DNA of 64,000 nt from Tribonema minus (Eukaryota; Sar; Xanthophyceae; Tribonematales; Tribonemataceae): contig JAFCMP010000026.1 of the NCBI GenBank assembly GCA_017506865.1, positions 310,001 to 374,000 on the forward strand, given 5' to 3'. The notes beneath the pieces were generated by a model. The model ran no database searches. It was given only the letters and a program-made list of their open reading frames with translations, and was not told where the DNA came from. Every line of letters starts with the position of its first letter. Within the stretch, counting starts at the first letter, position 1. The position numbers and the translations under genes are program-made. Below, in pieces: positions 28,589 to 58,240 of the stretch.

Positions 28589-28671
28589 TATGGACTTGTA
28601 TTTATAAAGGCCCAAGGGAGGCCGGGTTGCCTATGCAATGATTATCGAAAAGCTTGCGTCAACACAGCAGC

Positions 28672-33652: not shown

Positions 33653-34019
33653 GTATGGACTTGTATTTATAAAGGCCCAAGGGAGGCCGGGTTGCCTATG
33701 CAATCGAAAAGCTTGCGTCAACGCAGCAGCCTAGTCTGCGCTGTGCCCTAGGAGTTTGGATACCGGCGCCGCAACACAGCCCAGCATTCGCGCTCCACGT
33801 GTGTATGCCATGACGCGCTCCGCCAACTCCCGCGCCAGCGATATGCTCAGCTCAATGTGGATCTGACGCTTAGCTAACCCGGCCTTGCGTAACACATCTG
33901 CCTTCCCCCCCCCTGAGCACAGTGCTGAGTGCATTGCCAACTCCTTAACAAAAAGGCTTGTCTGCTTGCCCAGCCGTCCGTACGACTCCTGCACGAATGG
34001 CACAAAAGCCCAAGATGAG
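33653..34019 (-). mobile_element. 5'-truncated non-LTR retroelement, copy c
   Basis: A 367-bp 3' fragment of the same family as copy b (SWAFVPFVQESYGRLGKQ through the TAG stop and 3' terminus), inserted in the RNase H-integrase linker of gypsy B. The 5-bp word tgtac flanks it (33648-33652 and 34020-34024), and removing it rejoins the linker. It is very similar to copy b. Confidence 0.85.
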
Positions 34020-34024: not shown

Positions 34025-35190
34025 TCTGATAGCTGCCTTATGAAGTGCTCATATGTCGCTGATGCTGAAATATATGTTTGTTCTTGGTTGGGTGACATTC
34101 ATTCATGTCTTGCATGTATATAGCGGCAGCTTTATTGGCGCTAGCATCTACCTCATCGCAAGTTTGATCAGCTGTGTGATCCAGTATGGTATATATATCA
34201 TCATCCTCGCTGAGCTGTAGGATGCTGTCTGTTACAAAGCCCTCTGTCATTGCTGCGGCCGTGCACGCATAGTCATTGAATGCCTTTGTCCAGTCGCACC
34301 ACAGTGTTATGCATGAGACATAATGGTACTTCCTTTTGTGGTGTGCACGTATCTACTGGTGCAATATCTGCATCGGGCTCTGCGAAGCGTACGCCGCAAG
34401 GAGGGGCGTCACCTACTTCCGTAGCTTCTGGCCATTGCTCATCAACTTCCATATCAGATGATTGATGCTCTTGTGGGTTACGGGAAAGCCCATCAGCGTT
34501 CCCGTTCGACAGCCCACTCCGGTGCTGTATAAGCAAATCAAACTCTTGCAGTCTCAGCGCCCATCTCATGAATTTGTTGTTTGTGGGCGAGGTACTGCTC
34601 AATAGTTGCCTCAGCGCCTTTGCGTCTGTCTCTACTGTTACTGGACGTCCCCAGAGAAAGCCATCAAAATAATTCAGTGCTTGTACCATAGCACTCAAGC
34701 TCTGTAGCAGCCATTTTTGCGTCATCATCAGTGTTGATTTTACTGAAATACCCGATCACTACCTCACGCAGTCTTTGTCCATCTTGTATTTTGACGCGCC
34801 CATACGTAGAGTCGTGTGTGATTGGGACGAATTGCGTGAGTACTGCAGACACTGCGGTCTTGCAGGCTCTGTTTGCAAGTAGAAGGGCAAGTTGAAGTTA
34901 GGGTGAGCTAGAATAGGACTACTTGCGAGCGCACCTTTGAGGTCCTCCAAAGCCTTCTGCCTCGCAGGGGTCCACACCATGGGCTCGTCCTTGTGCAGCA
35001 GCCGGGCTATCGGCGCGAGCTTCTCAGCAAACCTGTGGACGTATCGCTTGTGGTAGTTGAAGAGGCCGCAAAGCGACTCAACACGTTTACGGTCCACCTT
35101 GTTTTCGATCATCGGGGCCGACATATCGAGCATTGCTGCGAGCATGTCTGGGGCGGCACGTACACCGTTGGCGCCCACTAGATGGCCCAA
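34025..35190 (-). pseudogene. Gypsy B RNase H and tether, frameshifted
   Basis: The coding sense passes through several frames. 34759-35190 holds the RT connection (GHLVGANGVRAAPDML, LCGLFNYHKRYVHRFAEKL). 34664-34852 holds the start of RNase H (IGYFSKINTDDDAKMAATELECYGT). 34273-34728 holds its end (VTVETDAKALRQLLSSTSP, HRSGLSNGNADGLSRNP). 34038-34250 is an acidic linker. At least three one-base shifts (near 35190, 34850 and 34690) and a further one near 34260 break it, so no functional polyprotein can be made from this copy. Confidence 0.75.
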
Positions 35191-36777
35191 ACTTCAACTC
35201 TGACCTAAACAGTTGTGACTTTTGCAGCGAACAACTCAGGCCTGCTTTGATGAGTCTGGAGAAAACATCTTCCAGATCTCCCAGGTGCTGTGAGAAGTCC
35301 TTACTGAACACCAATATATCATCTATATACACCAATGCATGAGCGTTGAGGGCTTCACGTAGTGCAAGATGCATGACTCTGGTGAAGGCTGCCGGTAAGT
35401 TCACCAGCCCAAAGGGGGCTATGTTGAACTCCCAAAGTGCTCCAGTGGGCACTCTAGAAGCTGTCTTCTGGGCCGATTCCTTTTCAAGTGGTATCTGGTA
35501 GTAGCCTTTTGCCAGGTCTAATGCTGACAAGACTTTTGCAGAGCCAAGTACACTGAGCATGGAGTCAATGCTACCAATGCCATGGCTGTCACGTACTGTG
35601 ACCTTATTCAGCTTTCTGTAGTCAAGGCAAAACCTAATCTTGTCTTTTTGCTTGACAAGCACTGGGTTGCTTGCCCACGGCGACTGTGATGGACTGACGT
35701 GACGGCTTTCTTGCAGCGCTTTCACGTGATCCATGATGAACTCAGCTTCTTTCTGAGACCATTTGCGTGCTTTATCTGCTATAGGCAGCGCTGCGCCTGT
35801 GTTTATGAGTATTTCAGCAAGGTGAGTCACGGGGGGATTCTTGGGGTCAGCCGCAAAAACTGCCTTTTGTCGGCGCAACATCTCCCTCGCGTGATCAATG
35901 TATGCAGTACCGTCGTCAAAAGAACTTCTCAGCATAGGCAGTGGATCACCTTTGCTATCGTGGAACAGCGCCTCTAGCTGTTCATCAGTCACTGTCTTCC
36001 TCGGCTCATGTATCTTGTGCGCGACCTCAGAGTCAACTTCTTGATTTGGCCGGCGAATACGTACTGACATATTCTCATGTTTGGACATTGTTTCGTGCTG
36101 CTCAGTGCTCGACTGGGTGGCAACACAGCTCACCTCATGCTCTTTGATCAGTTGCATGGCTTCTTCAATGGATGATACTGGGGTAATTACTGTCCCCGCT
36201 GGGAGCGGTTCCAAGTCTCCCACATATTCATCACTGAAAACATGAACAGGGGCATTCGTAGTGTTGATCATTTGTGCCATGACTGGTGCCCCTGGTTGCA
36301 CACTGACTAACACTGCAGCCACAGCCAAGCCATCTTTACACAAATTCCAGCGCCTGTTGCGGTTCGGTACCAGCATGGCATCATAGGCCTGCTTGCCGCA
36401 ATACATGGGTTTTACACTCAGCTCAATTATTGTCCTTGAGTGTGGGGCAAGTCGTACGTCTTCTGCCAAGTACACGCTGCGCACTCTGTCGCGTGAAGTG
36501 GCAGTTGTAGGGGCGCTACGATTGTCATGGGCACCTTTTGTTGTGATGCCATCAACCTTTATGGGGTATGTAGGTATACCTGCTTTGGGTCGCTCAAACA
36601 TCTTCACAGCCGCCTCTGTTACATCACCAGTAGGGGCGAATAGGGACTCTTTGTATAGCATGGCAGATTGATAGGCGCCACAGAAATTGCTGCCTATCAT
36701 CACTCCGGCATCAATATGTGCAACTATAAACTTGTGCCTGATCAGCACAGTGCCAAATGCAAGCCATAAGCTGATCA
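35087..36777 (-). CDS. Gypsy B reverse transcriptase (gag and protease missing)
   Basis: The frame enters from the 5' LTR. After about 250 residues of pre-RT sequence (VRLAPHSRTIIELSVKP, then FSDEYVGDLEPLPAGTVI), the RT motifs follow: SPWASNPVLVKQKDK, IRFCLDYRKLNKVTV, LSALDLAKGYYQIPL with the first catalytic Asp, APFGLVNLPAAFTRVM, and ALVYIDDILVFSKD with the YIDD active site. Nothing before it looks like gag, and only HIDAGVMIG vaguely resembles a protease loop. The element therefore has a large internal deletion from just inside the 5' LTR. The frame ends in a shift after LFRSELKF. Confidence 0.82.
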
Positions 36778-37122
36778 CAGATAAGAGTACTAGGTTGCAG
36801 TACCTGGCATGGAGCTTGAAGATGAGATGCCAGCCAGGGGCTTGAGGGTGCGGAAGAAGAAGGAGACGAGGGCAGCAGCCAGGAGAAGGCAGAGGAAGAG
36901 CGCTAGCCAGGCTGGGGCCAGTGTTGTTGGCATTAGATGCCGTGTTGTGTGCACTGCTACTGAGAACTCGAGAGAGCCTCGCATGACTCTCCACAAACAT
37001 CAACCAGGGGTATGTATGTATCTCCTGGCCCCTTATGCATACATACCTTCAGATCTGTAACCGAATTGTGTGGCTTGGAGTCACTCATCCCGCACTACAG
37101 CGTCCCCAACTAGACATGTCAA
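36778..37122 (-). repeat. Gypsy B 5' LTR
   Basis: The 345-bp partner of 27288-27632. On the minus strand it is followed at once by tgatcagcttatgg, where a primer-binding site would be expected; no tRNA match is obvious. Confidence 0.88.
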
Positions 37123-37124
37123 AG

Positions 37125-37253
37125 GTGCGGCGCGACCGCGCGGCTGAGGAGCTGCGCCAGCAAACGCAGCGAAGCTGCCACCATCAAGAAGCACAGTGGC
37201 TGCGCGCCTCAGCGTCTGTGGCAGCACTGGCGGAGCTGGCCGCTGCTGCTGCG
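37125..37253 (+). CDS. Exon right of gypsy B (plus-strand host gene)
   Basis: An AG at 37123-37124 and a donor GCG|GTAGGT at 37253/37254 bound 129 bp (43 codons, phase 0). The peptide is VRRDRAAEELRQQTQRSCHH followed by an Ala-rich helix ending in five Ala. It pairs in phase with the exon ending at 27233. The charged helix followed by an Ala-rich stretch would fit a membrane-anchored or coiled-coil protein; no family was recognised. Confidence 0.35.
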
Positions 37254-37715
37254 GTAGGTGCGGCTGCCGTTGCCGCTGTTGGCGCGGTCTCCGGTGTTGC
37301 TGCTGGCGCCACCTCTGCTCAGCCTGTTGCCGCTCCTGCTGCTGTTGGGCACGGTGCCGCTGAAGCTGCTGCTGCTGCTGCTGCGGCTGCCGCCACTGTC
37401 GCCGTTGCTCCTGCTGGCGCTGCTGCCGCTGCAGCTGCTGTTGCTGCTGTTGCCGCAGGTGTGTGTGTTGTTGCTGCTCCGTTGAGACACCAATGTGCCT
37501 GGTACCCAGCGCTTTGTGTACCCTGGCCTGAATGCAGTTGGGACCATCATGGCAGCGACGTGAAAGGGTGACCTTCAAGCTGGACCGCTCGCAGCAAGGC
37601 GGTAGCTTGGGCGCTTTGGGGGTTGGGTTGGACCTCCCGTGTTATCAGGACCAGTGCTTTCAGCACAAGCGCCTGATACCGTGTGATCATTTCATCCACA
37701 GATTTGATCCAGACA
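37254..37715. other. Triplet-rich low-complexity stretch and short flank
   Basis: From 37254 to 37487 the sequence is mostly gct/gcc/gtt triplets on the plus strand (poly-Ala), read as poly-Gln on the minus strand. From 37488 to 37715 nothing specific is seen. Confidence 0.5.
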
Positions 37716-38076
37716 TGTTGGCATAGTCCTCAGTTCTGGGCACCGTCAAACTTTAAGGTGACCGAGATCTTCAATACCCTGGTTCAAAATGAGACCAGTG
37801 TGCTCTGCGGCAGGGCAACCCCAAATCGGGGCTTGTATGGTATCACTGCTACCACAGCAAGGCAAAGCAGAAACACTGGCACTCACACCACAGCTCAGTA
37901 CTTGTGTGTGTATTCCAGGCCTGCTTCCTTGCTCTGAGAGCAAAGCTGCAGAAACAAACTTACAGTTGGCAGTTACACAATTATTGGAATGCAGCGCGCA
38001 TTCCAATCCCGAACAGGGGGAACCGGGGACCACTATGAATAAAACTGTGTGAAAACACTTGGTGATACCACAGACA
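37716..38076 (-). repeat. Probable gypsy A 3' LTR
   Basis: A 361-bp segment that, read on the minus strand, begins TGTCTGTGG right after a run of seven G and ends GCCAACA, giving the TG/CA ends expected of an LTR. No second copy is in the window, so its limits rest on the polypurine tract and the end motif only. Confidence 0.5.
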
Positions 38077-38305: not shown

Positions 38306-39547
38306 TTACTGCGCAATGCTGGTCAAAGCGTCAACCTGTGCAGGAGTGCCAGCAAGAAACCATGTGCCGTTGGCCGCAGTAGGCTCGGTGCCATACTTGT
38401 CGACCGCAAAAGGGAGCTCTGCGTACTTGCCCTTGTCCACCCAGAACACCCTAAGCTTCTTAACACCGCGATTGGAGCGAGTACGTGTGGAGCCGGGCTC
38501 AACAACACGGATTACCTCAGCTTCAAACCACTGCTGAAACACTACGCCGTCACCGCCAGTCATGTTAAACACGACCATGACCATCATGCCGCAAACTGCA
38601 GCATTAAACAACACTGCCTCCGAAGGGGCTGAAATGACAGCGCGCGGGCCAGGCGCGAGCTCATAAGAGCCGCGGCCACACTGCGCGAGCACACCTCCAA
38701 CGCCACGCCGCTTTGATGCCTTCTGCATCTCCCGCCTAACCACCTCCGTGCCTGCGCCCGCAATGTCAACGTTGCTGCGCAGGTCGGCAGCGCGGCTGAG
38801 CGTCGCCCAATACTCGTGCAACGCAGTGGCACAAGCGTCAAGGTTGAGAGCTGCCTCCCATGAGTCTGCGACCTCGCCTTCCCACCGCACCAAGTACTCT
38901 AAGCGCTGGCCGCGACCGCGGGCCTGTGTTGCGACACGGTGCCGCAAGATGGCCTCGACACCATGGCGCGCCTCATCTGGCGCGACGTCATCTGTCGTCA
39001 GCGAGCCAGGTGACATGCCATGCCAATGCTTGGCGAGCAGGTACTTGGCAAAGCCCGCGGGCAGCGTGCCCGGCGGACCTTCGTTGTTCGCGGCAGAGGG
39101 ATCTCTGCAGAGCTTGACGAGTGCGCGTGCGACGCGCATGGGACCCTCGGGGAGCTCCACCACAAGCACACCGGCTTGCACCGGCTTGTCTTGAAACACG
39201 CCAGGGCCGACGGCCAGGACCCGATAGGGGCCCTGCCAGCGGTCAAGCAGCTTCTTCGAGAAGAGCGTGCGGCGTGCCTGCCCAAATTTGGCAGACTTGG
39301 GGTCTATGTCGATGTCGGTGGCAGCCGAGTGCGTGCGCGGCGCGTGGTAATACCACACGCTGTCGCCCGCTTTGCAGGCAGTGCGCAACCCAAACACACT
39401 CGCAAGCGCGTCGTTCTCACGCAACACACGGGCGCGACGCAGGGCATGCCGCAGTGAAGCGACGCCGTGCGCCGCACGCTGGCGCTGCGTGAGCTCTTGG
39501 ACCAATTCAAGTGCGGAGCGGCTCGTACCGGGAGGGGCAAGGGGCTT
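38306..39547 (-). CDS. Gypsy A integrase tail and chromodomain
   Basis: This continues the integrase frame after a single TAG at 39548-39550. It holds a GPY-like module (KKLLDRWQGPYRVLAVGPG) and then a chromodomain (GVEAILRHRVATQARGRGQ, LEYLVRWEGEVADSWEAA, LNLDACATALHEYW), with aromatic residues in the expected places. Chromodomains of this type bind modified histones and steer chromovirus integration (family knowledge). The tail of about 150 further residues (VIRVVEPGSTRTRSNRG) is unrecognised. The stop is at 38306-38308. Confidence 0.75.
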   Translation of the reverse strand, partial: KPLAPPGTSRSALELVQELTQRQRAAHGVASLRHALRRARVLRENDALASVFGLRTACKAGDSVWYYHAPRTHSAATDIDIDPKSAKFGQARRTLFSKKLLDRWQGPYRVLAVGPGVFQDKPVQAGVLVVELPEGPMRVARALVKLCRDPSAANNEGPPGTLPAGFAKYLLAKHWHGMSPGSLTTDDVAPDEARHGVEAILRHRVATQARGRGQRLEYLVRWEGEVADSWEAALNLDACATALHEYWATLSRAADLRSNVDIAGAGTEVVRREMQKASKRRGVGGVLAQCGRGSYELAPGPRAVISAPSEAVLFNAAVCGMMVMVVFNMTGGDGVVFQQWFEAEVIRVVEPGSTRTRSNRGVKKLRVFWVDKGKYAELPFAVDKYGTEPTAANGTWFLAGTPAQVDALTSIAQ

Positions 39548-41596
39548 CTAAAGGTCACCTAGGAGTTGGTGCAAGGCGTAGTGAACCTCGCGACCGGTGG
39601 CTAACAAGTAGGGAGTGGCGCCGGTTGCGCGGTTGTGGGAGGTGTTGTGCGCAAATGAAACATGTGGCAGCCAGTCTGCCCAATCTCCACCGCCATCACT
39701 AACTGCCATTGCGAGCATCTGTGCTAACTCTTGCATGAAGCGCTCACACTTGCCATTGCACTCAGGGTGGTACGCAGTGGTGTTGAGTTTGCGAATGCCC
39801 ATGTATTGGTAGAATGCCTTGGCTAGCGCTGACATGAAGATGCTACCGCGATCACTGAGGAGCTTGGCAGGGGTGCCATGGAGAGGGCTGTGCTGATCTA
39901 TGAGGATACGGGCTGTACCCACAGAGTTGAAGTCGTCAGGTGTAACAGGGTAACACCAGACCCAGCCGCTATTATACATGTCCATGACAACAAGCACATA
40001 GCTGTGGCCGCTGCTACTGAGGGGCAGGAGGCCGAAGTGATCTATGGCAATGGTGTGGAAGGGGTATGGGGGCATGTCGCGCCAAACTAGGGGGTGGCGC
40101 GAAAGCTTGCCAGTGCGCTTGTGGGCTTGGCAGGGCCAGCAGTGACTGACCCAGTAGATAGCAGTGCGCGTCCAGTTGGGCCACCAACAGAGCGCGCGAA
40201 CGCGCTCCATCGTGCGCTTGATGCCCTGATGACCCGCCCAGGCGCTGCCATGGAACGCGTCCATAACGAGAGCGCGCAAAGAGCGAGGCACCACAATCTG
40301 ATCGTGGCCGCTGGCGTCGTGGTGCACTAGGAGCAGGCAATCGCCGTATGCGTGCAATGAGCACTCTTTTGACCACGCCTTCACCTGACTTGCCAGCGCG
40401 GCATCCGCAGGCAGCTCCCCATCCACCATGTGTCCCCACAACGCACCGAGCTGCGCATCCGCGCGCTGCTCGCGCTGCCACTCCGCAGGCGTGAGCCTGC
40501 AGAGCTCCGCATGCTCAGCAAACGCCTCGCAAGCCGCAGGTGACGCTCCCTCTGCCTCCTGCGCAGCCAGCAGCTCCTCTGAGCCGCCGCCACGCAACGT
40601 GTCGACGATCAGCATGCAAATGTGGAGGTACTCGCCAGTGGCGAGCGCCTCAAGACGGTGAGCGTCGGCGGCCTCAAGGCCGTATGCATGCAGAAGCCGC
40701 TCACGCGACGCCTCGGCGGCGTCCGCAGCGGTGGCAGGGAGGGGGTTGCGGCTCGGGCCGTCCGCGGTGCCGTGGTCGGCGCCCTTCTTGTAGACGACGT
40801 CGATGTCGAAAGCCGACAACAACTCGGCCCAGCGTCCGCCGCGCGCAGTGCACACACGGATGGATTCCATGTACTGCAACGCGCGGTGGTCGGTGAGAAG
40901 GGTGAAGCGCGTGCCCCACAGCATGTGCCGAAACTTCTTGATGCCGTTGACGATGGCGCCGGCCTCGAGGTCCGTGGTGGACCAGTTGCGCTCGTTGGGG
41001 AGCGTGGCGCGAGACGTGAAGGCGATGGGCTGCTCGACGCCGTCGGCGTCGACCTGCGAAAGCACGGCGCCGAAGCCCTCCTTGCAGGCATCTGTGGCGA
41101 GGATAAAGGGACGATCGCCGCTGGCGGCAGCTGCGTAGTCGGGGTAACGCATGACGGTATGGAGTGCAAGAGCCTCGTTGACGGCGCGCATGGATTTGCG
41201 CTGCTCATCGGAGATATGAAACTCTGCACCCTTGGCCATGAGAGCGGTGAGGGGGGCCACTAGCACTGCCATGCCACGGACGAAACGGCGGTAGTAGTTG
41301 GCAAGGCCGAGCCAGGCGCGCAATTGCGACAGGTTGGTGGGCTCAGGCATCTCTAGCAGGGCTTGGACTTTGGCGGGGTCAGGCCTAATGCCATCAATGC
41401 CAACGATGTGGCCTAGGAACTGGACGTGGCGGCAGCCTACGTGGAGCTTGGCGGGGGCCAGCTTCATGCCATGCTTCTGGAAGCGGTCAAAGACGCCTCG
41501 GAGGTCCTCAATGTGCTGATCTATCGAGGTGCTGGAAACAATGACATCGTCGATGTAAGGCTGCACGCGGCTGAGTCCTGCTAGCACTGTCTGCAT
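39548..41596 (-). CDS. Gypsy A reverse transcriptase end, RNase H and integrase
   Basis: The 682-codon frame opens in the RT palm with QPYIDDVIVSS (YIDD active site), followed by the connection FLGHIVGIDGIRPDPAKV. RNase H motifs are FILATDACKEGFGAV, NWSTTDLEAGAIV and LLTDHRALQYM. Integrase has an HHCC-type segment (GHQGIKRTMERVRALCWW to HCWPCQAHK) and the triad FHTIAIDHFG, LLSDRGSIF and NGKCERFM. It ends at a TAG after HQLLGDL, while the sense continues in the same frame into the chromodomain region, so this stop is probably a nonsense mutation in an originally longer polyprotein. Confidence 0.85.
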   Translation of the reverse strand: MQTVLAGLSRVQPYIDDVIVSSTSIDQHIEDLRGVFDRFQKHGMKLAPAKLHVGCRHVQFLGHIVGIDGIRPDPAKVQALLEMPEPTNLSQLRAWLGLANYYRRFVRGMAVLVAPLTALMAKGAEFHISDEQRKSMRAVNEALALHTVMRYPDYAAAASGDRPFILATDACKEGFGAVLSQVDADGVEQPIAFTSRATLPNERNWSTTDLEAGAIVNGIKKFRHMLWGTRFTLLTDHRALQYMESIRVCTARGGRWAELLSAFDIDVVYKKGADHGTADGPSRNPLPATAADAAEASRERLLHAYGLEAADAHRLEALATGEYLHICMLIVDTLRGGGSEELLAAQEAEGASPAACEAFAEHAELCRLTPAEWQREQRADAQLGALWGHMVDGELPADAALASQVKAWSKECSLHAYGDCLLLVHHDASGHDQIVVPRSLRALVMDAFHGSAWAGHQGIKRTMERVRALCWWPNWTRTAIYWVSHCWPCQAHKRTGKLSRHPLVWRDMPPYPFHTIAIDHFGLLPLSSSGHSYVLVVMDMYNSGWVWCYPVTPDDFNSVGTARILIDQHSPLHGTPAKLLSDRGSIFMSALAKAFYQYMGIRKLNTTAYHPECNGKCERFMQELAQMLAMAVSDGGGDWADWLPHVSFAHNTSHNRATGATPYLLATGREVHYALHQLLGDL

Positions 41597-42140
41597 GAGG
41601 CGCGTGAAGTGGCCAGGGGCGCCGGCGCTACCTTGGGGGCAGCGCAGCCACGATCGTAAAGGCCGAACGAGGTGACCATAGCGGTCAGGGGGATGGCGTC
41701 GGGGCTGATGGCTGAGGTGAAGTAGCCGCTGGTGATGTCCATAGTGCTCAAGACAGAGGCCCCACCAAGACTGTTGAGAAGGTCTTCGATGTTTGGGATG
41801 GGGATCTGGGGCACTATTGTCTGGGCGTTGAGCTTCTTGTAGTTTACGGTGATGCGGGCTGTGCCGTCTGGCTTGAGCACCGCGACTACAGGGGAGGCCC
41901 AGTTGGACAACGAGGAGCGGATGATGCCGGCAGCAAGCAGCTTGTCAATCTCAACCTTGCCAAGTGATCAGTGCCGTGAGTGCAGGGGAGTACCTGTAGG
42001 GCCGGTCGTGACAGGGCACTGCTCCCTCCTTCAGATCTAGGCGAAACGGTAGGGTATCACAGAACCCAACGTCCCAAGTGTCTTTAGACAAGGTTTTGCT
42101 CGCAAAGTCCGCAAGCATGAAGCAAGCATGAAGCAGAGTC
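41581..42140 (-). pseudogene. Gypsy A reverse transcriptase N-terminal part, frameshifted
   Basis: The start of RT lies at about 41910-42110 (DTLPFRLDLKEGAVP and RYSPALTAL in one frame). It continues in 41581-41910 with NWASPVVAVLKPDGTARI, NYKKLNAQTIVPQIP and LSTMDITSGYF (first catalytic Asp). After SFGLYD a one-base shift near 41655 moves the sense into the frame of 39548-41596. A short direct duplication (agcatgaagca twice near 42112-42133) marks another break upstream. Confidence 0.75.
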
Positions 42141-43080
42141 TAGTCACTTGGTCTGCAGACCAGCCCTCGAGATCTACGCGGACTGCAAGCATGTGCGCAG
42201 GCAGTACTTTGCGCGCCTCGTCGAGTGCTTTGTTAGCTAAAGGGTCCGAGTGCTGGTAGGTCCCTAGAGCAACGCCGCCACTCTCAGGTATGTTTACTTT
42301 GGCTCCTTCCTCAGGCTGCGGCTGATCAAAGGAGATCGACTCACCTAGCTGCTGCTGCAGCGCCTCGCGCACAGCCGCTGCGTCCATCGGCGCCATCGCT
42401 GCTGCATCGGCGTCGCTGTGTTCAGCGTCCACTCCTGTTGCTGCGATGCCAGCGCTGCTCCACATCTCCGTGCGCAGATCCAGCGCGAAAATGTCGCAGC
42501 CGAACAAAAACGCGTCGCCTGTCCCGCGCAAACCCTCACCCCCCCTTGGCGAAAATGGTGGCGCTGCCGCTGCAAAGGTTGCTGCGTGCGAGCGCGGGGG
42601 TCGCCATTGTGGTGAGCGTGCGTGCTGCGCCGCTGCGGCATGGGCCGCGGCTGGCGCGCAAGGCTGTGGTGGGGATGCGCACGCCGCTGCGGCAGGGGCC
42701 GCGGCTGGCGTGGACGGCGGTGGAGCAGGTGGTGGAGCGGATGGTGCTGATGTTGCTGGCGTCGGCGTGGCACGGGCCGCGGCGCCAGTTGGGGTTGCCG
42801 AAGTGTACGCTGCCGCGGCGGGGGCCGCGGCGCGTGAGGTAGTCAAGGCTGCGGTGGCTGCTGCCGAAGCTGAAGTTGCCGCAGTTGAAGTTGCCGTTGC
42901 GGCGACGCGCGTCGCGCTGTCGTCGCAGGAGTCGGTTGAAGCCGCGTCACGCATGCGCTGCAGCGCCTCGTCAGCGAGCTTGACGCCGTACGTGCCGAAG
43001 GTGGTGTGTGTGCCGGTGTTGATCAGCGTCTGTATGGCAGGCGGCAGCGGCGCGACGACTGCTCGGTGATTTCGTGCAAG
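42037..43080 (-). CDS. Gypsy A linker between methyltransferase and reverse transcriptase
   Basis: The open frame picks up the methyltransferase C-terminus after a frameshift (PPAIQTLINTGTHTTFGTYG), runs through about 100 residues of Ala, Thr, Ser and Pro, and ends in a more ordinary stretch (GESISFDQPQPEEGAKV, then KALDEARKVLPAHMLAVRVD) just before RT. Much of the low complexity may be mutational slippage. No catalytic motif is visible. Confidence 0.5.
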   Translation of the reverse strand, partial: LARNHRAVVAPLPPAIQTLINTGTHTTFGTYGVKLADEALQRMRDAASTDSCDDSATRVAATATSTAATSASAAATAALTTSRAAAPAAAAYTSATPTGAAARATPTPATSAPSAPPPAPPPSTPAAAPAAAACASPPQPCAPAAAHAAAAQHARSPQWRPPRSHAATFAAAAPPFSPRGGEGLRGTGDAFLFGCDIFALDLRTEMWSSAGIAATGVDAEHSDADAAAMAPMDAAAVREALQQQLGESISFDQPQPEEGAKVNIPESGGVALGTYQHSDPLANKALDEARKVLPAHMLAVRVDLEGWSADQVTRLCFMLASCLRTLRAKPCLKTLGTLGSVIPYRFA

Positions 43081-44578
43081 AGGCCGCTCTGCTGCAGGAT
43101 GTCGCCGACGAGCTCCGCCATGCGCGGCGCCACTGCGTTCGCAAGGTATTGCGCGTACGCGGTGGTATCGCCAGGCGCAGGCGCGTCCCACTGGTAAGAA
43201 GCAGGGAAGCTGTGGACCGCGCGGAGCGCGTCCCACGGCAGGTGCTCGGAGCGAGCGAACTCGGCGGGGTCCTGCGTGGCACGTTGCGGCGCATGACTGT
43301 CTGCACACCGGTGGGCGTAGGGTTGCTGCGATAGGTGCTGCCGCGCGTGGTGGGGGCGGGGCCGTCCATGCTGTAGACTTGCTTGGCGGCGCGGTTGCGG
43401 CCAACAGAAGTGAAAAACTGCCGCCGCTGTCCCGAGCTGTCCGGGACGTCCCCCGTGGCCTCGCGCACCGACTCGTACGCCGCATTCGCTTTTGTGAACG
43501 CGAGCAGCTCGCGCGCATGCCCCAACGACGCGCGCAAGCGCGCAGCGTCGAGCTCGCCGCTGCCGGGTCGCACTAGCGCGTAGAAGACGCGGTGGCGCGT
43601 CTGCGCGATGTGCGCGTCGTCGCCGCACACGTAGAGCTTCTCCTGCAGCGTGAAGCCGCCGTGTTGAGCGCAGCGCAGGAACTCCACGAGCTCCGGCGCG
43701 CTCTGCAGGCCCGGCACATTCTCGAACAAGAGCAGGCGGCAGCAGCGTGCGCCCATGGCGATCTCGAGCATGTAGTACAGGTGCTGGATGCCGAGCGCGG
43801 TCTGCCGCGTGCCGGCAGAGGAGTAGCGCGTGCAAGGGGGACCGCCGGTGAGCACCTGCGCGTCCAGGCGCAGCATCTCCTCGATGAGCTCGGCGCGCGT
43901 CGCCGGCAGCGTCATGTCGCGCTGCAGCGTCTGCGTCTCCGGATGGTTGGCGCTGTTGACGTCAAGGGCGCGCTGCTCGAGATCCACTGCAAGTTTGATG
44001 TCCATGCAGCCGCGCAGGCCCTCGGCGAGCCCGCCGACGCCGCAGTAGACCTCAACGGCGCGCGGGCGCGCCGTGCACTCGCGCTGCTGCAGATCGTCGG
44101 ACGCGGCGCGACGCAGCGGGACAGCCTTGCCGAGCACAGTGCCGCGGGGCAAGTCGAGCGCCGCGTTTGCGCGTTGCTGCAAGAGGACGGGCTTGGCGTG
44201 AACGCCGGCAGCTAATTCTGTGCTAGCGATGGCGGCGCTGTGTGAGGGGTCGACAATGACTTGCACTAGCTGCTCGCCATGGGCTTGCACAGGGGTGACG
44301 CCGTCCGCATGCATGATCTGAATCCACACCGGCGCAGTGGAGTCTGCAGGGGTCTCGGGCGAGTGAGCGTCCACACGAACAACAGCGACCCATTGCTGGT
44401 CTTTGTCGTACACATAGACAGGCGGTGAGGGCGGATCGCTGCTAGTCGGCGAGGGCTGCGGAGACGAGGGCGCGCCAGCAAACTTGTACTCTGTGCTACC
44501 GGGGGTGGCAACACCGGGGGAAGGGGGCATGCTAGGGTCTGCACGACGCCGAAGAGAGGGGTGTTGACGGCAGACCAA
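43060..44578 (-). CDS. Cytosine-5 DNA methyltransferase domain of gypsy A
   Basis: In the frame 42971-44578 the domain starts near residue 174. Motif I is VEVYCGVGGLAEGL (175-188), which binds S-adenosylmethionine; LAVDLEQRALDVNSA follows (motif II). Motif IV is TGGPPCTRYSSAGTRQ with the catalytic Cys at 249; motif VI is LLFENVPGL (286-288 ENV); motif VIII is QTRHRVF (326-332). Target-recognition-like DGPAPTTRGSTYR is at 405-417. A one-base shift near 43290 moves the sense into 43023-43835, where LRAVHSFPASYQWD and YLANAVAPRMAELV match motifs IX-X. The domain is therefore complete, about 330 residues, and split once. It would transfer a methyl group to cytosine C5. It lies between protease and RT and is not a neighbouring host gene: it shares the high GC and polyprotein order. 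Confidence 0.88.
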
Positions 44579-45603
44579 GGGTGACGATTGATGAAGTCAC
44601 GCCCCAAGATGAAGTCGTCCGGCAGGTGCGGGATGACTAGCGCCATAACGGAAGCGGAGAGGCCAGACGGGCCGGCGGCATCAAAGTGCAATGCTACCAG
44701 GGTGGTGACCTTCTGCGGAGTGGCGCTGGTATCTATGCCCCCTACACTACGTGGTGCTGACAAGTTGCGAACGTCGCCGCTGTCTATGGCGCCCCTCTCT
44801 ACGAGACGGTCGTAGCAGCGCTGCGAGATGGCGGTGACTGAGGCGCCGGAGTCCCACAGGGCGCATTTGACGAAAGCATAGCGCTGGGACTTGGCGGAGC
44901 GCAGACGGCATCTAAACAGGGAGAACAAGTCTGCGTGAATGGAGCCACGCAACTTGCCTGTCTCGACCTGCTGCGCAACGGGAAGCAGCTGCGCCTCGAG
45001 CGCCACCACCTCGCGGTAGTACGCCATGACAGCGTAGTCGCGCGCGTCCGCGCCGCCACTGCGCACGCGGCTCTCCGGTGTGTAGAGCGCCGCGATCAGA
45101 TCCTCCACATACCCCGCCACCAACGCCGCGTCCACCTCCGCCTCGTCACGCCCCCAACTGTCCATGCCATCCTCCGCCACCTCTTCCAAGGCCGACCCCT
45201 CGCTGTGCTGCAGCACCGGTGTGAGCATGCATGCCCAAATGCCGTCGTCGCCACCCCACAAGCGTGTGCGCGACTTCGCCTGCACCTCCTCGATCTGCGC
45301 GAGGCGCGCCGAGGCGCACTGCCTGAGATCTGCCCACTGTACGCGTTCCGGCACGTGTTTGGCGGAGGCGCCGAGCGGCGAGCGCGCCGCTGGCGCCGGC
45401 GGAGGGGCAGATGCAGATGTGGGTGAGGGCGGCGCCGCCGCCGTCTCTGGCGGGCATGGGCGCAGGCGGGAAGCGATGGTGTCCACTTCCTTGCCAGTGC
45501 TGAGCAGTTGTATGGAGTAGGAGGGGTCGTCGCCGTTGTGGTCGTCGACGGCGAGGATCTTGGCGCGCTCCCCGCTTGTGGAGCCCACCCTCACGTACAG
45601 CAC
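44540..45603 (-). CDS. Gypsy A aspartic protease
   Basis: The retropepsin signature CALWDSGASVTAIS is at residues 248-260 counted from 45603, with the catalytic Asp at 251. It is followed by a flap-like segment and LPDDFILGRDFINRH, the usual ILG strand and helix after the fold. An acidic, helical region precedes it (VDAALVAGYVEDLIAALYT). The start is not real: the sense comes in from the upstream linker through a one-base shift near 45600. After GVVQ near 44540 the sense moves to the methyltransferase frame. Confidence 0.8.
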
Positions 45604-46463
45604 GACAGCGCCTTTGACGGAAGGGGCGCTGTTGGTGCTGCACGCGTTTGCAGAGGGCGAGGGTGGAGGGGGGTCTTGTGTGCGAGTTGAGGTTGGGTCG
45701 GTTGAGGTTGCGTCTGGCGTGGGCGCGCTTGCGGTTGTCGCCGCGCGCGCCGCTGGTGTGGTCGCCGTTGTCGGCGCCGGCGCCGTGTCTGCTGCTGCTG
45801 GCGCTGCCGATGGCGACGCCGCTGCTGCAGAAACACAGAAACAGGCGCCGGAGGTGCGCCCGCTGCTGGCGCTGTTGCCGAGCCACTCTTCACCCCTCCT
45901 TGATTCGTGGCGTCCCCCTGAGTGGCGCGGAGCGCAGGTATGCGCCGCGCTGGTGTGCTGCGCTGTGGCGCGGCCTGCTCGCGCGGCGCCGCTGGCGTCG
46001 ACGAATAGGGAGACTCCGATGGGAAACCCCCTGCCCGAGGGTTACCATGCTGCGCGTCGCGGCGGCGCCGCGCGCGCCGCGCCGGCGCTGCAGATGGCGC
46101 CGGCACGAAGGGTGGAGCGTGTGGCCTCAGCCCGCTGCCTGCAAGCGAGGAGAGAGTGGGCTGCTGCTGCGACGCAGCTGCAGCGGCCGGCGGTTGCTCC
46201 GCAGGTGGAGCCATGGCCGGCGGTGCCTGCGGCTGCTGCTGCTGAGCAGCTGCGGCTGCAGGCGGGGCCTGCGGCTGCTGCTGCAAAGCTGCGGCTGCCA
46301 CAGGCGTGGGCGTCGGCTGCTGCTGCTGCGCAGCTGCTGCCGTTGCCGTGGGCGCGCCTTGCGCGCTGACTGTCGTCTGGGGCGGCACGTCACTGCCGCC
46401 CCCCTGCACAACAGTACCCCCAGGTGTTCCCCCCACGCCGAGGGCAGGCGCGGGGTCACACCC
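45591..46463 (-). CDS. Gypsy A gag-pol linker, Ala/Gln/Pro-rich
   Basis: This is in frame with gag after the gag stop. It begins GCDPAPALGVGGTPGG and consists mostly of Gln, Pro and Ala runs (AAAAQQQQPTPTPVAAAAL) and Arg-rich repeats. It contains no domain. It could reach the ribosome only by read-through of the gag TAG. Confidence 0.5.
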   Translation of the reverse strand, partial: GCDPAPALGVGGTPGGTVVQGGGSDVPPQTTVSAQGAPTATAAAAQQQQPTPTPVAAAALQQQPQAPPAAAAAQQQQPQAPPAMAPPAEQPPAAAAASQQQPTLSSLAGSGLRPHAPPFVPAPSAAPARRARRRRDAQHGNPRAGGFPSESPYSSTPAAPREQAAPQRSTPARRIPALRATQGDATNQGGVKSGSATAPAAGAPPAPVSVFLQQRRRHRQRQQQQTRRRRRQRRPHQRRARRQPQARPRQTQPQPTQPQLAHKTPLHPRPLQTRAAPTAPLPSKALSCCT

Positions 46464-48040
46464 CTAGTTGCGGCTGCGGCCGCGACCGCGCCCGCCGCGC
46501 CGTCCGCCACGCCCGCCGCCCTCGCGCTGCTGCGACTCGTACACCTGCTGCGCCGACTTGCCTGCCTCGCCGCTCGCTGCGCGCTCGATTGCGCGCGCGC
46601 ACAGGCGCCTGTAGTCCTCCTGGCCCGTCGGCCTGAACTTCTGCACCCATGGCAGTTTCTCAACTGCGGCGTCCCAGTTGGCGGCGTTGTACGGCTGGTC
46701 GCAGCGTGCGAAGGAGTGGCCGTCGTTGCCGCAGTTGAAGCAGCAGCGCGATGCAGGCGGGCCGGTGCCGAAGGTCTGGATGGCAAAGACCATGTATGAG
46801 ATCTGCCGGTCCTGCTTCTCCGACAGGTGCTGCTTGCGCGCTGCCTCCTTCTGTGCGGCCGTCTGCTGCGGCTTGGCAGCGGGAGTTGTTGTGGCGCCGC
46901 CGCCGGCGCCCATGGTGCCGTCGGTGTACGAGCGCAGGTTGGCGGGGTAGACCGCCAGGCCGTCCTTGCGCGCAATCGCGTCATGCACCGCGTGCTCCGC
47001 CTCGCCGCGCAGGATGTCCAGCAGCTCGTCGGTGGTGTGGGCGCGGGGGTTGAGGCTGATTGCCCGCCACGCCGAGTTGGTGCTAGGGTACTGGTGTCTG
47101 CAGACCTCGAGCAGCGCCAGCAACACAAAGTTGTCGTGATGGGGGTCAGCAGAGAGGACCGCCGATGACGCCTGCGCGAACTCGTACACGAAGTCGCGCA
47201 ACGCCAGCCCGGGCTTGACCACCCACCGCACAAGATCCGCCGCGAGCTCCCCCGGCCGGCGCAGCTCCAAGTGCTTGGCGAGGCGCTCGAAGATCCAGTC
47301 GAGCAGCACTGGGTCGGCCTCAGCCGCCATCTCCTTGCCCTGGCGCAGCCAGCCAGGCAGCTGGCCCCGCAGTGTCTTCGTGCGGTGGTTGTCGCCGCCG
47401 CTGGTGGCAAGGCGCTCGATGACGGCGCGGAGGGTGGGCGCAAACCAGTTGCTGCCGTAGTCGGCACTGTTCCGCAGTGTCGGCCACATGGGTCGCTGCC
47501 GCTGGCGCTGGGCGTTGGCCTTCTCGCGGATGAGGTCTGGCAGGATCTGCTGGATGGTGACGAGGGGGGCCATTGACAGGCCGTCGAGGGTGATCTGCGG
47601 GATGTGGGACATCTGGATGTCCACCTGCACCTTGGTGAGCGCGATGCCGCGTGTGTCGAACCACCCGTCGCGCGGCAGGCTCGGCTGCCTGCCCGGCAGC
47701 TCGTCGGCGTCGGCCTCCGCCGGCGCCGCCTGCGCCGGTGGCGCTGACTTGTGGTCGCTGCTGTCGCGGCTCGAGCTGACGATGGTGCTGTCGCGGCCGC
47801 TGCTGCTGCCGTGACCGCCGCTGCCACCCGCGCCTCCACCTGCGCCGCCGGCGCCCTTGCCGCCGGGGCGGCGCGACGCCGCGCTGCGGACGCTCTCCTC
47901 GTCGTCGTCGCCGTTGCGACTCGCCAGACTGTATGCGAGCATGGAGCGTGCCGCGGCCACCTCCTGCCGCTCTAGCGCGCGCTCTCGCGCGTCTGCCTCT
48001 GCAAGCCGCGCGCTCGCTTCCGCCTCTCGCTCACGCACCT
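46464..48040 (-). CDS. Gypsy A gag with zinc knuckle (5' end missing)
   Basis: The protein begins inside a helical, charged region (REREAEASARLAEADARERA) because its 5' end is replaced by a non-LTR fragment. The capsid-like middle includes PLVTIQQILPDLIREKANA and RLAKHLELRRPGELAADLV. A CCHC knuckle (CFNCGNDGHSFARC, about residues 445-458 from 48074) is followed by an Arg/Gly-rich nucleic-acid-binding tail. The frame ends AAC TAG GGG at 46464-46466; the next codons are open in the same frame. Only 5' context and linkage identify it as this element's gag; the zinc knuckle is decisive for the family. Confidence 0.75.
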
Positions 48041-48311
48041 GCTCAGGGGGGGGGAAGGCAGATGTGTTACGCAAGGCCGGGTTAGCTAAGCGTCAGATCC
48101 TCATTGAGCTGAGCATGTCGCTGGTGCGGGAGTTGGCGGAGCGCGTCATGGCGTACACACGCGGAGCGCGAATGCTGGGCTGTGTTGCAGCGCCGGTATT
48201 CAAGCTCCTAGGACACAGCACAGACTAGGCTGCTGTGTTGACGCAAGCTTTCCGATAATCATTGCATAGGCAACCCGGCCTCCCTTGGGCCTTTATAAAT
48301 ACAAGTCCATA
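48041..48311 (+). mobile_element. 5'-truncated non-LTR retroelement, copy d
   Basis: A 271-bp 3' fragment of the copy-b family, plus strand, running from the G-run of the endonuclease domain to the TTTATAAATACAAGTCCATA terminus. It abuts the broken 5' end of gypsy A at a shared gctcagg word and is followed by cgtatg. No target duplication is found, so the junction probably arose by deletion or recombination after insertion. Confidence 0.82.
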
Positions 48312-48535
48312 CGTATGGGTTTGGCTCGCAAACAAGTCTAGGATAAATCCAATTCAAGGTAATGAAGTATTTGATTTTGGAAAAGTGTCAGCACCGTCGT
48401 CAAGCTCCGTTTGTGTGCGGCATATATGAAAACAATTTCTGGACGAGCCAGACCCTTGCCCTAGTGTGCACTCCGATACCAACTGTAGCATCCAAAGACA
48501 CTAGATCAAAATCAATAAAATCCTGAGACATAATG
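48312..48535. other. No recognised feature
   Basis: AT-richer sequence between the non-LTR fragment and the minisatellite. No coding signal. Confidence 0.4.
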
Positions 48536-49781: not shown

Positions 49782-49982
49782 TTAGTAGTCGCCGGTCTGC
49801 TCCACCTCCTCTGCACTTTCACTTGCATTTTCAGCCTTGATGCGCCGAGCTTCAAACTCTGCATCGGCGGCGTCCTGTGCAGCCTGCTGATGCTCTACTA
49901 TAGCGTCAACATCATAAGACGAATCGCCGGCGCGAATCTCACGTTTTGGAACGCGGGGACAGCCCGGTAGACTCTTTCTCAT
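49782..49982 (-). CDS. Short acidic frame crossing the right arm's inner border
   Basis: A 66-codon minus-strand frame ends in TAG at 49782-49784. It reads LPGCPRVPKREIRAGDSSYD and continues as an acidic helix (AEFEARRIKAENASESAEEV). Its first 16 or so codons lie in the arm; the rest is unique. It may be the last exon of a gene disrupted at the arm border. No family was recognised. Confidence 0.3.
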   Translation of the reverse strand: MRKSLPGCPRVPKREIRAGDSSYDVDAIVEHQQAAQDAADAEFEARRIKAENASESAEEVEQTGDY

Positions 49983-49989
49983 ATAAGAG

Positions 49990-52900
49990 AAGTGTGTGAG
50001 CTTGCTGTTTCATTTAGCTATGAAAGTAAAATTTATTGTCCCATTGTCCCTGGAGTTTCATCGAGTACTCTAGAAACTGCTCAAGAGGGGTGCGCAATCA
50101 CTGATTACCCATGCCTGTTCCGACCATGTCCCAAATGTCCCGCCTCAGCCACCCACGAGCACACATGCGGTCAGCACAGAGAAAATGGTCATGTGCAGGC
50201 CAGTGTACATTTAATGTTGACAGGCTCCTGCATGGCGCATATTGCTGCTGTATGAGCCAATCCATTCCCACAGGCTCTTCAGCGCTTATGCTAGCGCTTG
50301 CCTTCGGCTGCTTAGCTCCTCTGCCGCGCGGTTCCGCGTGTTGGTGCCCGTCATCTGCGCGTCTCGCGGACCCGTCATACCAGCTTCGGTTTTCCGCTGT
50401 ACATGGCGCAGAGTATCGTTGATACCCTCTACGTTCCTCACCGATCATCTAAAGTATTAGTTGGCGTCTTCTGCGCGATGACCAAGCGCTGTGCCGCTGT
50501 GCCACTTCGTCGGGCACTCCGTGCTGCGCGTCGGGTCGGATCGTAGGCTGAGCATCTTTGATGGCCTGTGCCAGGCACTGTTCACGCTGTGCCCTCTGCA
50601 TGATCGCACTTTGATCGCTGGCCACTTCCCTTGCCACATGGTCGCGGTCAAGGCGTACAGGAGTCTCGGCATTGAGCACGATTGTGCCAATTGCAGTCGG
50701 CACACCGGTACGTTTATGTATGGATATTCCTAACTAGCACAGGCCCTACTCAGGATTTTTAAGTTTGAACTTCATAATTGAAGTTTGAACTTCATTTTAC
50801 TTTTTGGAGGCTTTTCTATTTGGTTCGCATACCATAGATTAATCACCTGCTGTGCCTCGGCAGGCTGGACTGCAACTTGTACTCTATGAACTTTTTACGG
50901 TACTACTGAAGTACATTGTTTCCAGCGCAACGAACATGGGGACAGGGGATGAAGCGAATGCGCCTGAAGGAGGACGTTAGCTGACGCACAAGGTTTTGAA
51001 ATTACGACCTTCGAATACTATGAACGTTGCACTGCCCGTGAACATGGCAGACACTGTGACCAGTGTGAACTACCAAGATGTATCTACCGCATGCACTATG
51101 TCACAAGACAAGCGCCATGTGTCAGTCGGTATGCCTGTACCTTTGATGCGCCATATTGAATGGTGCAGTAGCAGGCAAGTGTGAATGAACATGCACAATC
51201 GCAGTCGAATGCACGCATTGGAGAAGAACATACTGAAGTTTGACAGGCGCACTTTAGGTGTATTCAAGGCGCGAGAACCTCCTTCCATGCATTGCAAATG
51301 TCGCGCGCTTCATCACACGTCTTCGTTGGCCTCCTCTCTAGCGAGATTGACTGAGTGTGCTGCTGTCACACTTTGTGTTGGTTTAGAGTAAGGGTTAGGA
51401 TGGGTCGCATGTTTGTTTGCCCAGTGTGAGAGTGGAATCAATCAGCACATGAATGCTGAAGCATTGGTAACGATCAGCTTTGCAGACGGCTGCCGATGAG
51501 GCCCGGGCAACACTCACCTTGGGTACTCTTGGCTGCAATGACCACCAAATCATGGACGCATGCGACGTGCACAGCGCTGAAGCAACCGATGTATTGAGAG
51601 GTGCCTTGTTGTCGGTCACAAGTCTTGTGCTGCTTGTTACCATCCATGCTCTCCCATCGCTGTTGCACATGGTCGGGCTCTCGTTAACTTTGCCCCGGTG
51701 CCTGGCAGGTTGACGGAGCCCAGAACCCAACGGTCGGAAGAGGCAGCGTGCAAGATGGAAATGCTGCCGTCACAGAGTGCTGCAAGGTATTTTTCCGCAG
51801 CTGTTAGCCAATCGATGTGCGCTGCGGCTCATGCACGCTTCGAACTGCCAGCACGCAACAGTTGATGTGGAACGCACACAGTGTGGGCAGCGCTTGTGAT
51901 ATCAAGGCTTACAGCAAGAGTGTACTACTTCATCATGAATATCTTCAATGGGTAACACGGGATCTCGAACAGTTGCCTGTGTCTTAGAGCTCGTTTGCTT
52001 GAGCCTGTTGCCCCACGTTTCTTCCACAAACTTTTTACATTGAACAAGTTGGTATGCATTTGATGATTAAGTAACGACAGTTGTTCATCTGTCAAACCGC
52101 TGTGTGCTGTCAGCGCACTTCTATGAGCATAGCCAGCTTCTTGAGTTGTGCTCGGCCGTGACATGAGGCCTTAGAGCGAGAGTGTTCCACTAAGTTAGCT
52201 AGAACGGTATCATTGCGATGGACTCGTAAAGTGTTGCCTGAATCAATACTGCTCCTCATATAATTGCATTGCGCTCGCTACTGCTAGTGCGTGCAGAGTC
52301 CTTAATACCTCAGGATATGGCATCAGAGCTGCCGTAGTCATTTCTACACACAACACCGTTGCCCTACTTCTGAGGTTCTTCAGAAATACTACTGTAGAAC
52401 TTCGAAGTATCTGATCATGAAAGATGAAATCAAGGACGTCATGCCGTAGCGTGAGGTTGCACTTGCACAGCATGGCTGAGATGGATTAATCAGCAGCGTT
52501 GCCGTCCTCTGCGCCATCATCGTCATGACTTTGCCACAATGCGGTGCTGGCGCCCGCATCTGGTGTGTGAAGCTGTTGTGAGTTAGCTGATTGCTGTGAG
52601 CATTGCGAGGATCCTGCTGACAGCTAACTTGTATTATTTGGCGCACCATCTTCTCCAAGGACGATCCAATGGAAGCAGTCCGCTGGCAGGCGCTTGCATG
52701 GAGTGAAGATGGCACACGGCGTTTCAAAACTCTGGGAGTCTCAGAGGTGCTTTTCACGTCGGCGACCGTGCGTCACTTGCGCTCGGCACGATACAATGCT
52801 GCGTGAACATCCGAAGTGTTGGCGTTGCAGTTCCAGCAGCGCATTCGTAAGGCACTTTGTGAGACCGGCTGCGCTACACTCGATAGCCACACCAATAACG

Positions 52901-53374
52901 GATGTCTTGTTGTTATGTTCTCGCTGCACATCGATCGGGCTCATGTGTGCGTTTTGCCTGCTGTGCTGCCCTGCCCTCGACTCTTGTGTTGTTATGCGCG
53001 CAAACCCGAAGACTAAAGTCGTGCACGGTGCAGCCCCACAGCTGCACCGTCTCGGTGATAGATCAGCACCAATTCCGCACCAAGTGCGGCACTGCGGACC
53101 GCACGGTGGAGCCCCGGTGCTGCACATCGAGATGTTTCATTGTCCTAACGTACTAAGTCCATGGGACGATCATGGATGCATGGATGCAATTGCAGATACG
53201 ACATGAAGTGTGAAATGCCCAGTGCCCGTGTCCCTTGGTTTGCACAAGAACACATTGCAGTTAAGCCAAGCAACGCGCACGTGCCAGCGGTAGAACTCTC
53301 ACCTGCTCCATGTGTACACAACGAAACGGAGTCAAGCAATCACTCAAGTGCTCTCCATTGCATGCCGCACAAAC
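49990..53374. other. Inner part of right arm: no recognised gene
   Basis: The counterpart of 3137-6512. Shared frames are 52389-52757, 51395-51730, 50449-50703 and, on the other strand, 50491-50733. One frame (52741-53127 minus, 128 aa) is longer here because a stop in the left arm is CAA. Around 50810-51290 it is homologous to 9310-9985. No domain is recognised. Confidence 0.5.
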
Positions 53375-53379
53375 ATTGC
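53375..53379. repeat. Copia target-site duplication (left)
   Basis: attgc, repeated exactly at 58236-58240. The left arm has a single copy (gcaat near 2430) with uninterrupted flanks. Confidence 0.93.
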
Positions 53380-53670: not shown

Positions 53671-53680
53671 CCCCCTCTCA
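53671..53680 (-). promoter_or_regulatory. Copia polypurine tract
   Basis: On the minus strand tgagaggggg lies directly before the 3' LTR. A near copy of this word and its context lies at 53789-53808. Confidence 0.75.
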
Positions 53681-58235: not shown

Positions 58236-58240
58236 ATTGC
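58236..58240. repeat. Copia target-site duplication (right)
   Basis: attgc, an exact match to 53375-53379. Confidence 0.93.

Follow-up and report, generated by a model that had tools for sequence, protein, structure and literature searches.

Does the C5 cytosine DNA methyltransferase encoded at this locus belong to the Ty3/gypsy retrotransposon in which it lies, and if so, what would a mobile element gain from such an enzyme? The locus is situated in the window, namely the whole stretch of 64,000 nucleotides that was analyzed (C26:310001-374000), in the Tribonema minus genome of 158 Mb in 554 contigs. In the following, the anatomy of the window element, its relatives across the genome, the selection acting on the domain, and its affinity to known enzymes are described, and the possible roles of the methyltransferase are weighed.

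The methyltransferase domain of the window element

A degraded Ty3/gypsy element was found on the minus strand of the window from approximately 48 to 38 kb. The G+C content was 63-71% at 40 to 48 kb versus 49-64% in the remaining 2-kb bins of the window. As summarized in Table 1, the Pfam matches followed the order aspartic protease (weak), C5 methyltransferase, reverse transcriptase (RT), RNase H, integrase, and chromodomain, which agreed with a preliminary description of the locus that had placed the methyltransferase between the protease and the RT of a gypsy element with a chromodomain. The profile search with the DNA_methylase model (PF00145), which had been proposed there as a check, gave 58.9 bits on the minus-strand frame 44596-42974 (E 7.6e-16; cut-off 22), and a match to the NCBIfam dcm superfamily was obtained as well (E 1.2e-14), its 54.7 bits lying below the cut-off of 100.65. 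Given that the PF00145 score exceeded the curated cut-off and that at least 147 matches were found in the genome, a chance match is untenable.

The hallmarks of C5 methyltransferases, namely motif I, motif IV with its Pro-Cys, motif VI (ENV), motif VIII (QxRxR), and motif X, were all found, and of the motifs listed in the preliminary description, I, IV as GGPPC, VI as ENV, VIII as QTRHR, and IX-X could be located in the window, motif IX as an IX-like site and motif X in another frame. Motifs I, IV, VI, and VIII were present in most of 30 places fetched from the genome. GGPPC was read by script in 24 of these, and the six places where the script failed included three with GSPPC (L017, L018, and L020) and one with GGPPC (L025). 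Motif X was in frame in 22 of the 24 script-readable places.

To describe the state of the window copy, it was read against an open-frame relative at C66. The methyltransferase with its linker runs in one frame from 44503 to 43289 and in another from 43289 to 43050 (79.7% and 78.8% identity for the two frames by tblastn), and the protease part, in a region where the C66 relative aligns over 45630-44548 (tblastn), sits in yet another frame. The RT was 88% and 96% identical to that of the C66 copy (tblastn). The range originally assigned to the methyltransferase, 43060 to 44578, does contain it, but the upstream part of this range proved to be linker, the domain proper being 44089-43050. Likewise, the single frameshift originally noted holds for the methyltransferase, but counted from the protease onward, the reading frame of pol changes at least four times, once within the methyltransferase and at least three times elsewhere, and an in-frame stop is present at 39548-39550. 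With these defects, the window copy must be regarded as dead. The neighboring copy at C26:288034 differs from it by 0.6% and, judged by frame length, seemingly has the frame change in common; owing to this near-identity and the apparently shared frame change, the two look like a duplicated dead copy.

Gag of the window element was not recognized by Pfam. The probable 3' LTR is preceded by a G-rich tract. Further evidence for it was a 61-base match, 84% identical, to the beginning of the C66 3' LTR, and partial matches to the window LTR flank the C9 element on both sides, 12 kb apart. No matching 5' LTR of the methyltransferase element was found within the window. Since a primer-site-like stretch, recognized by eye, and the next gypsy element come after it, the window 3' LTR may be shared.

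Several other features were observed in the window. An inverted repeat (4-6512 and 49933-60648; pieces of 2.4 and 3.4 kb, 91% and 94%) frames the window middle; its arm may extend past window position 1, and its inner end at 49933 lies near the expected 5' end of the methyltransferase element, assuming the spacing seen at C9. One arm contains a copia-type LTR element (53380-58235; LTRs of 291 bp, 98%), and copia sequence related to it adjoins the methyltransferase copy at C26:287 kb. The minus-strand frame 59593-60852 matched the ResT/TelK telomere resolvase catalytic domain with 29.5 bits (cut-off 27). Finally, a short repeat occurs in four copies in both orientations, 87-98% alike (2871-3129, 28581-28959, 33646-34018, and 48040-48315).

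Table 1. Features of the methyltransferase-bearing gypsy element (window positions)
Feature	Position	Strand	Evidence or remark
Gag to protease linker	46270..46742	-	resembles C66 copy; 71% nucleotide identity to L039
Aspartic protease	44584..44862	-	DSG 44839-44859; gag-asp_proteas 18.4 bits, E 0.0033, below cut-off 28.2
C5 cytosine methyltransferase domain	43050..44089	-	PF00145 58.9 bits; frame changes at about 43289, after motif IX and before motif X
Motif I	44030-44059	-	methyltransferase
Motif IV, GGPPC with catalytic cysteine	43832-43846	-	methyltransferase
Motif VI, ENV	in 43706-43735	-	methyltransferase
Motif VIII, AQTRHRVF (QTRHR)	43583-43606	-	methyltransferase
Motif IX-like	43340-43363	-	methyltransferase
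Motif X region	in 43289-43050	-	different frame from rest of methyltransferase
Reverse transcriptase	41018..41874	-	RVT_1 E 4.4e-15; frame change near 41655
RNase H	40808..41116	-	PF17917 E 2.8e-32
Integrase, H2C2 zinc finger and core	39764..40291	-	PF17921 E 2.5e-16; rve 22.1 bits, below cut-off
Chromodomain	38807..38959	-	PF00385 25.9 bits (cut-off 25.1); beyond in-frame stop
Probable 3' LTR	37690..38076	-	97% second copy at C26:294055-294428

Copies of the element across the genome

The matches obtained in the genome search with the window domain comprised the domain itself, the copies at C26:288034 (98%) and C9 (85%), groups at approximately 80%, 61%, and 36%, as well as families that matched more weakly, at 25-33%. 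Open frames in the other copies reach 2936 aa. At C66, a protease-like stretch, the methyltransferase, RT, RNase H, integrase, and chromodomain share one frame of 2634 aa, in which the protease-like stretch (19.5 bits) and the chromodomain (22.9 bits, just under the cut-off of 25.1) scored below the Pfam thresholds. This methyltransferase lies inside a pair of 213-bp LTRs of the form TG...CA, which are 97.2% identical (K2P 0.024) and 12 kb apart. At C551, the methyltransferase, RT, RNase H, and integrase were detected in one frame by Pfam, and a protease by eye only; no chromodomain was matched there, the fetched stretch stopping short of its expected place.

A genome search for the RT returned at least 137 matches. 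As type-1 RT places, i.e., those of the window element's own type, we counted 80, which represent 83 of the 85 rows with at least 55% identity (two C76 fragments were left out). A methyltransferase match on the same strand within 6 kb upstream was found in at least 64 of the 80, mostly at 1.35-2.1 kb, when 89 of the 147 methyltransferase rows were used, the weakest families and some fragments being left out. At least one (C31) of the 16 places without an upstream match lies near a contig end.

The open frame common to the methyltransferase and the pol domains, the LTR borders lying outside at C66, and the presence of the domain, at a fairly steady distance, upstream of at least 64 of the 80 RT places refute, for this genome, the view that a methyltransferase gene of host or viral origin inserted separately into just one gypsy copy, a separate insertion having been considered in the preliminary description as well. 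Nothing speaks for this view beyond the broken state of the window copy, and it is hardly credible. The methyltransferase is almost certainly an integral, selected domain of pol. By its pol order, the chromodomain after the integrase, and the flanking LTRs (the C66 pair), the element is best read as a Ty3/gypsy chromovirus.

Relatives were also sought outside the genome. No relatives matched the patterns in IMG/VR, and no long polyprotein relative was returned by a protein search at E 0.001. With only the domain as query, 13 rows were obtained from 7998 candidates scored, nine of which (P0006-P0014; jgi or ena) were close kin with 54-79% identity.

Selection on the methyltransferase

The dN/dS values were calculated by the NG86 method on the stretches as they stand. 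For the methyltransferase, dN/dS was 0.064 (dS 0.50) between subfamilies A1 and A2, 0.177 between the window and C9, 0.15-0.20 when the window copy, its neighbor at C26:288034, or C9 was compared with the A subfamilies, and 0.22-0.27 at dS 1.2-1.5 between the A subfamilies and B. The corresponding RT values were 0.085 (window vs. A1), 0.104 (A1 vs. B), and 0.160 (window vs. B). RT pairs with subfamily C gave 0.11-0.19 where calculable, and the methyltransferase pairs with this subfamily were saturated, three of them giving 0.35-0.48 at dS 1.7-2.1 and the others no value. Near-identical pairs (0.11-0.45) have few differences and are uninformative, as exemplified by the 0.445 on seven differences between the window copy and C26:288034. 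In type 2, a further gypsy lineage described below, the methyltransferases of C513 and C23 gave 0.211 at dS 1.65. Hence, in the comparison with RT suggested in the preliminary description, the methyltransferase (0.06-0.27, A vs. B range) is under purifying selection, somewhat weaker than that on RT (0.09-0.16).

Gypsy lineages with and without the domain

A homologous domain was also found in two more gypsy lineages, designated type 2 (C513, C23, C201, C204, and C89) and the third lineage (C292 and C54). Comparison of the type 1 and type 2 profiles gave E 1.2e-25 over 309 columns, and the third-lineage profile matched type 2 with E 3.1e-18 and type 1 with E 4.5e-9.

In type 2, the domain lies between a Gag-zinc-finger region, recognized by eye, and a protease-like stretch that was below the Pfam cut-offs or unseen by Pfam. 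When the C89 RT was used as the query, 143 RT places were found, at least 100 of which have a methyltransferase match 1.5-6 kb upstream. By RT identity to C89, such a match was found in 43 of 52 places (≥91%), 3 of 22 (68-72%), 35 of 43 (61-65%), and 19 of 26 (58%), all of these counts being lower bounds, since the list of methyltransferase places is incomplete; C218 was counted as a miss on account of a LINE inside it. The 68-72% subfamily, which is related to type 2 and has 3129-aa frames in several places, seems either to be without the domain or to carry a version that escaped these searches. The window also contains a second gypsy element (34849-38076, minus strand; RT at 35653-34849). 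The first part of its RT shares 50-58% identity with type 2, and no methyltransferase was detectable in this element by tblastn. This second element comes after the probable 3' LTR of the methyltransferase element, as if the LTR were shared. As to the active site, motif IV of the type-2 copy at C23 (L042) reads SSC instead of PPC, and the 59.4-bit Pfam score of L042 is common to many places, so that this variant may represent a whole subfamily.

A LINE with a methyltransferase, and hence a transfer between retroelement classes, was considered at C218, where a 3370-aa frame contains a LINE-type-looking RT, and was rejected. The LINE is a later insertion, because the C89 family runs straight into the protease-like stretch and the gypsy RT, and because type-2 gypsy sequence resumes on both sides of the LINE with approximately 13 bp doubled. 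This insertion of a LINE into a type-2 gypsy (L043 and L051) leaves the 3370-aa frame open across the first junction.

In the third lineage, the domain lies between the protease (DSCAG, by eye; no Pfam match was obtained for it) and RT, which is the same position as in the window, and the methyltransferase scored 22.1 bits in Pfam against the cut-off of 22. The C292 subfamily has TASTTPQ at the place of motif IV and lacks 25 residues of C54 in 12 of 12 fetched copies, and C54 has a loop with a cysteine but without Pro-Cys (TASTRCEG). C292 and C54 are 69% identical, with a dN/dS of 0.155 at a dS of 1.4, which is near saturation. The loop-less C292 lineage has 27 matches in which 291 or more of the 308 residues are covered at 98-100% identity. 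Selection thus appears to have held the C292/C54 domain, the share that falls after the loop loss being undivided in this dN/dS.

With three gypsy lineages, two polyprotein positions, and one lineage that would be catalytically dead yet selected, for binding or assembly and not for methylation alone, the methyltransferase might be an ancestral Ty3/gypsy building block in this group of algae, a tentative view against which the odds somewhat lean. A deep congruence of the RT and methyltransferase trees is not claimable, as three groups make a trivial unrooted tree.

Affinity to known C5 methyltransferases

The type-1 profile matched DNMT1, DNMT2, a prophage enzyme, HaeIII, and HhaI among PDB sequences, and no sequence named DNMT3 was among the 44 matched up to E 0.1. 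When the window piece was used as a single sequence, the prophage enzyme ranked first. A weak fold model was obtained for the 261-aa open stretch of the window (mean pLDDT 64.8, pTM 0.67; last 60 residues below 50). Among the best 50 of its 1726 fold matches, the nearest solved folds were DNMT2 and DNMT1 at a TM of approximately 0.5, and DNMT3 did not appear. The type-1 domain therefore resembles DNMT1, DNMT2, and bacterial dcm-type C5 enzymes in motifs and predicted fold but differs from them in sequence (16-24% identity in the same best 50 of 1726), and it is DNMT1/DNMT2-like as judged by the scores of profile and model.

When the 13 retroelement rows were placed in a tree together with one DNMT2-like row and six bacterial or viral-like rows, they grouped with a support of 91/85 under midpoint rooting, a grouping that is suggestive only; the row labeled T3_LINE_C218 is the type-2 gypsy methyltransferase, and T3_C292 and T3_C54 are the third lineage. 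Omitting the third lineage from the tree brought the DNMT2-like row next to those from retroelements. This sole DNMT2-like row is host C523, which is long-branched and shifts between trees. Free-standing dcm-like methyltransferases unlike the retroelement ones were also observed at C223 and C181 (L001, L002, L003, and L046), and a frame next to L046 resembles, by eye, a nucleotide kinase, which hints at virus-derived segments.

Proposed role of the methyltransferase

The best explanation overall, to which we assign a probability of about 0.62, is a chromovirus that has a C5 methyltransferase as a fixed pol domain and methylates its own cDNA or insertion. Its polyprotein runs from Gag through protease, methyltransferase, RT, RNase H, and integrase to the chromodomain; this anatomy was observed directly, as were the single open frame of other copies, the LTR pair around one copy, and the purifying selection on the domain. 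The protease would free the methyltransferase, which would travel in the particle with RT and integrase. By methylating either the cDNA of the element or its fresh insertion, the enzyme would let the copy arrive resembling host heterochromatin, and the chromodomain would steer the integration complex to marked chromatin or host heterochromatin. The related lineage in which the catalytic loop is apparently missing suggests that the domain may have another role as well, one that needs no catalysis, for instance in binding DNA within the pre-integration complex. Regarding the parts of this explanation, the intact copies quite probably encode an active enzyme; that its substrate is the element's own cDNA or insertion has slightly less than an even chance; and a cooperation of the chromodomain with the methyltransferase, by which the element would both read and write chromatin marks as considered in the preliminary description, is doubtful.

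The type-1 copies had CpG observed/expected ratios of 1.04 (window element), 1.03 (C66), and 0.94 (C551) versus 0.81-0.89 in two other parts of the window, and the ratio was 0.66 and 0.72 in the C292 and C89 stretches, respectively. Since CpG is little or not depleted in type 1, nothing there points to dense methylation of CpG over a long time, which speaks against a strong CpG effect. The gypsies of this genome in which no domain was detected, the 16 type-1 RT places without an upstream match, the higher methyltransferase dN/dS in pairs with subfamily C, and the weak fold model likewise count against the explanation.

The domain might instead shield the element from host restriction, methylated cDNA escaping attack or the deamination of unmethylated foreign DNA. 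Such a role was proposed for Symbiodinium elements (PMC5890265), and the purifying selection on the methyltransferase would accord with it. However, gypsy relatives seemingly without the domain have spread in this genome, and the loop-less lineage has its 27 closely alike matches, so that we regard this role as unlikely. An equally unlikely explanation is that the domain serves at present chiefly for structure or DNA binding and can dispense with catalysis, as might be surmised from the C292 subfamily, in which the motif IV loop is missing from all 12 fetched copies and yet the low dN/dS versus C54 was found. Against this, the Pro-Cys is kept by type 1 and by four of the five type-2 rows examined (the exception being the SSC of C23), C54 retains a cysteine, and, with the C292/C54 dS so close to saturation, the history of this pair may be mostly catalytic. 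Still less probable is that the enzyme acts on RNA, either the tRNA primer or the genomic RNA, in the manner of DNMT2 and thereby aids priming or packaging: DNMT2 was among the best profile and fold matches, and the C66 and window copies are without CpG depletion, but the type-1 match to DNMT1 about equals that to DNMT2, and the score thus does not single out DNMT2.

Relation to known retroelement methyltransferases and significance

Retrotransposon-borne C5 methyltransferases were already known from an alga and a dinoflagellate, Klebsormidium and Symbiodinium (PMC5890265), as the preliminary description had noted; it called them rare, but in this genome they are common, with well over 100 matches in three gypsy lineages. 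KnitGypsy-Dnmt3 of Klebsormidium nitens likewise has a C5 methyltransferase in the gypsy Pol frame under purifying selection (Ka/Ks < 0.2, PMC5890265). In that case, however, the enzyme is Dnmt3-related, the host is a streptophyte, and the repeats are DIRS-like, whereas DNMT1/DNMT2-like scores, an LTR pair (C66), and a chromodomain were found here; the word chromodomain is absent from the main text of PMC5890265. The host in the present case is probably a red-plastid alga: a RuBisCO large-subunit fragment resembles the red-plastid form, and the single-domain PDB sequences that best matched a light-harvesting protein bear the cryptophyte names ACPI/CAC, although its four top rows are long LHCI chains. 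In Symbiodinium, LINE and DIRS elements carry methyltransferases (PMC5890265), and SymbioDIRS-Dnmt3 and SymbioLINE-Dnmt resemble the present case in that many retroelement methyltransferases occur per genome in more than one architecture, but those elements are DIRS and LINE elements, not gypsy (PMC5890265). CG methylation was reported for the SymbioDIRS-Dnmt3 enzyme (PMC5890265), which serves here as an analogy only. Elsewhere, retroelement DNMT3s and orphan DNMTs are mentioned (PMC12344493), methylases are named among the accessory domains of retrotransposons (PMC6338049), and a further paper bears solely on viral insertions in protists (PMC10120064).

As compared with Ty3/gypsy chromoviruses, the elements described here share the pol order and the C-terminal chromodomain but possess, in addition, a methyltransferase, which lies between protease and RT in some lineages and follows Gag, ahead of the protease, in another. 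No report of this element was found in open-licence PMC papers, from which its absence from print does not follow. Since a gypsy pol DNMT, KnitGypsy-Dnmt3, has been published (PMC5890265), the kind is already known. The observation of the preliminary description is confirmed, and most of its reading is supported. What is new here is the variant, together with a genome-wide picture that is richer than the window alone suggests.

Cytosine methylation is usually a weapon of the host against transposons; here, the elements themselves bear the enzyme, in well over a hundred places. One genome thus holds matched natural variants, namely elements with the domain in the protease/RT position, with the domain in the Gag/protease position, with the loop missing, and seemingly with no domain, and the methylation and insertion sites of these four groups could test what a transposon gains from a methyltransferase of its own, a question that was left open by PMC5890265. 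In particular, a line that apparently keeps the domain after the loss of its active site would lend itself well to asking why epigenetic marks are written by mobile elements.
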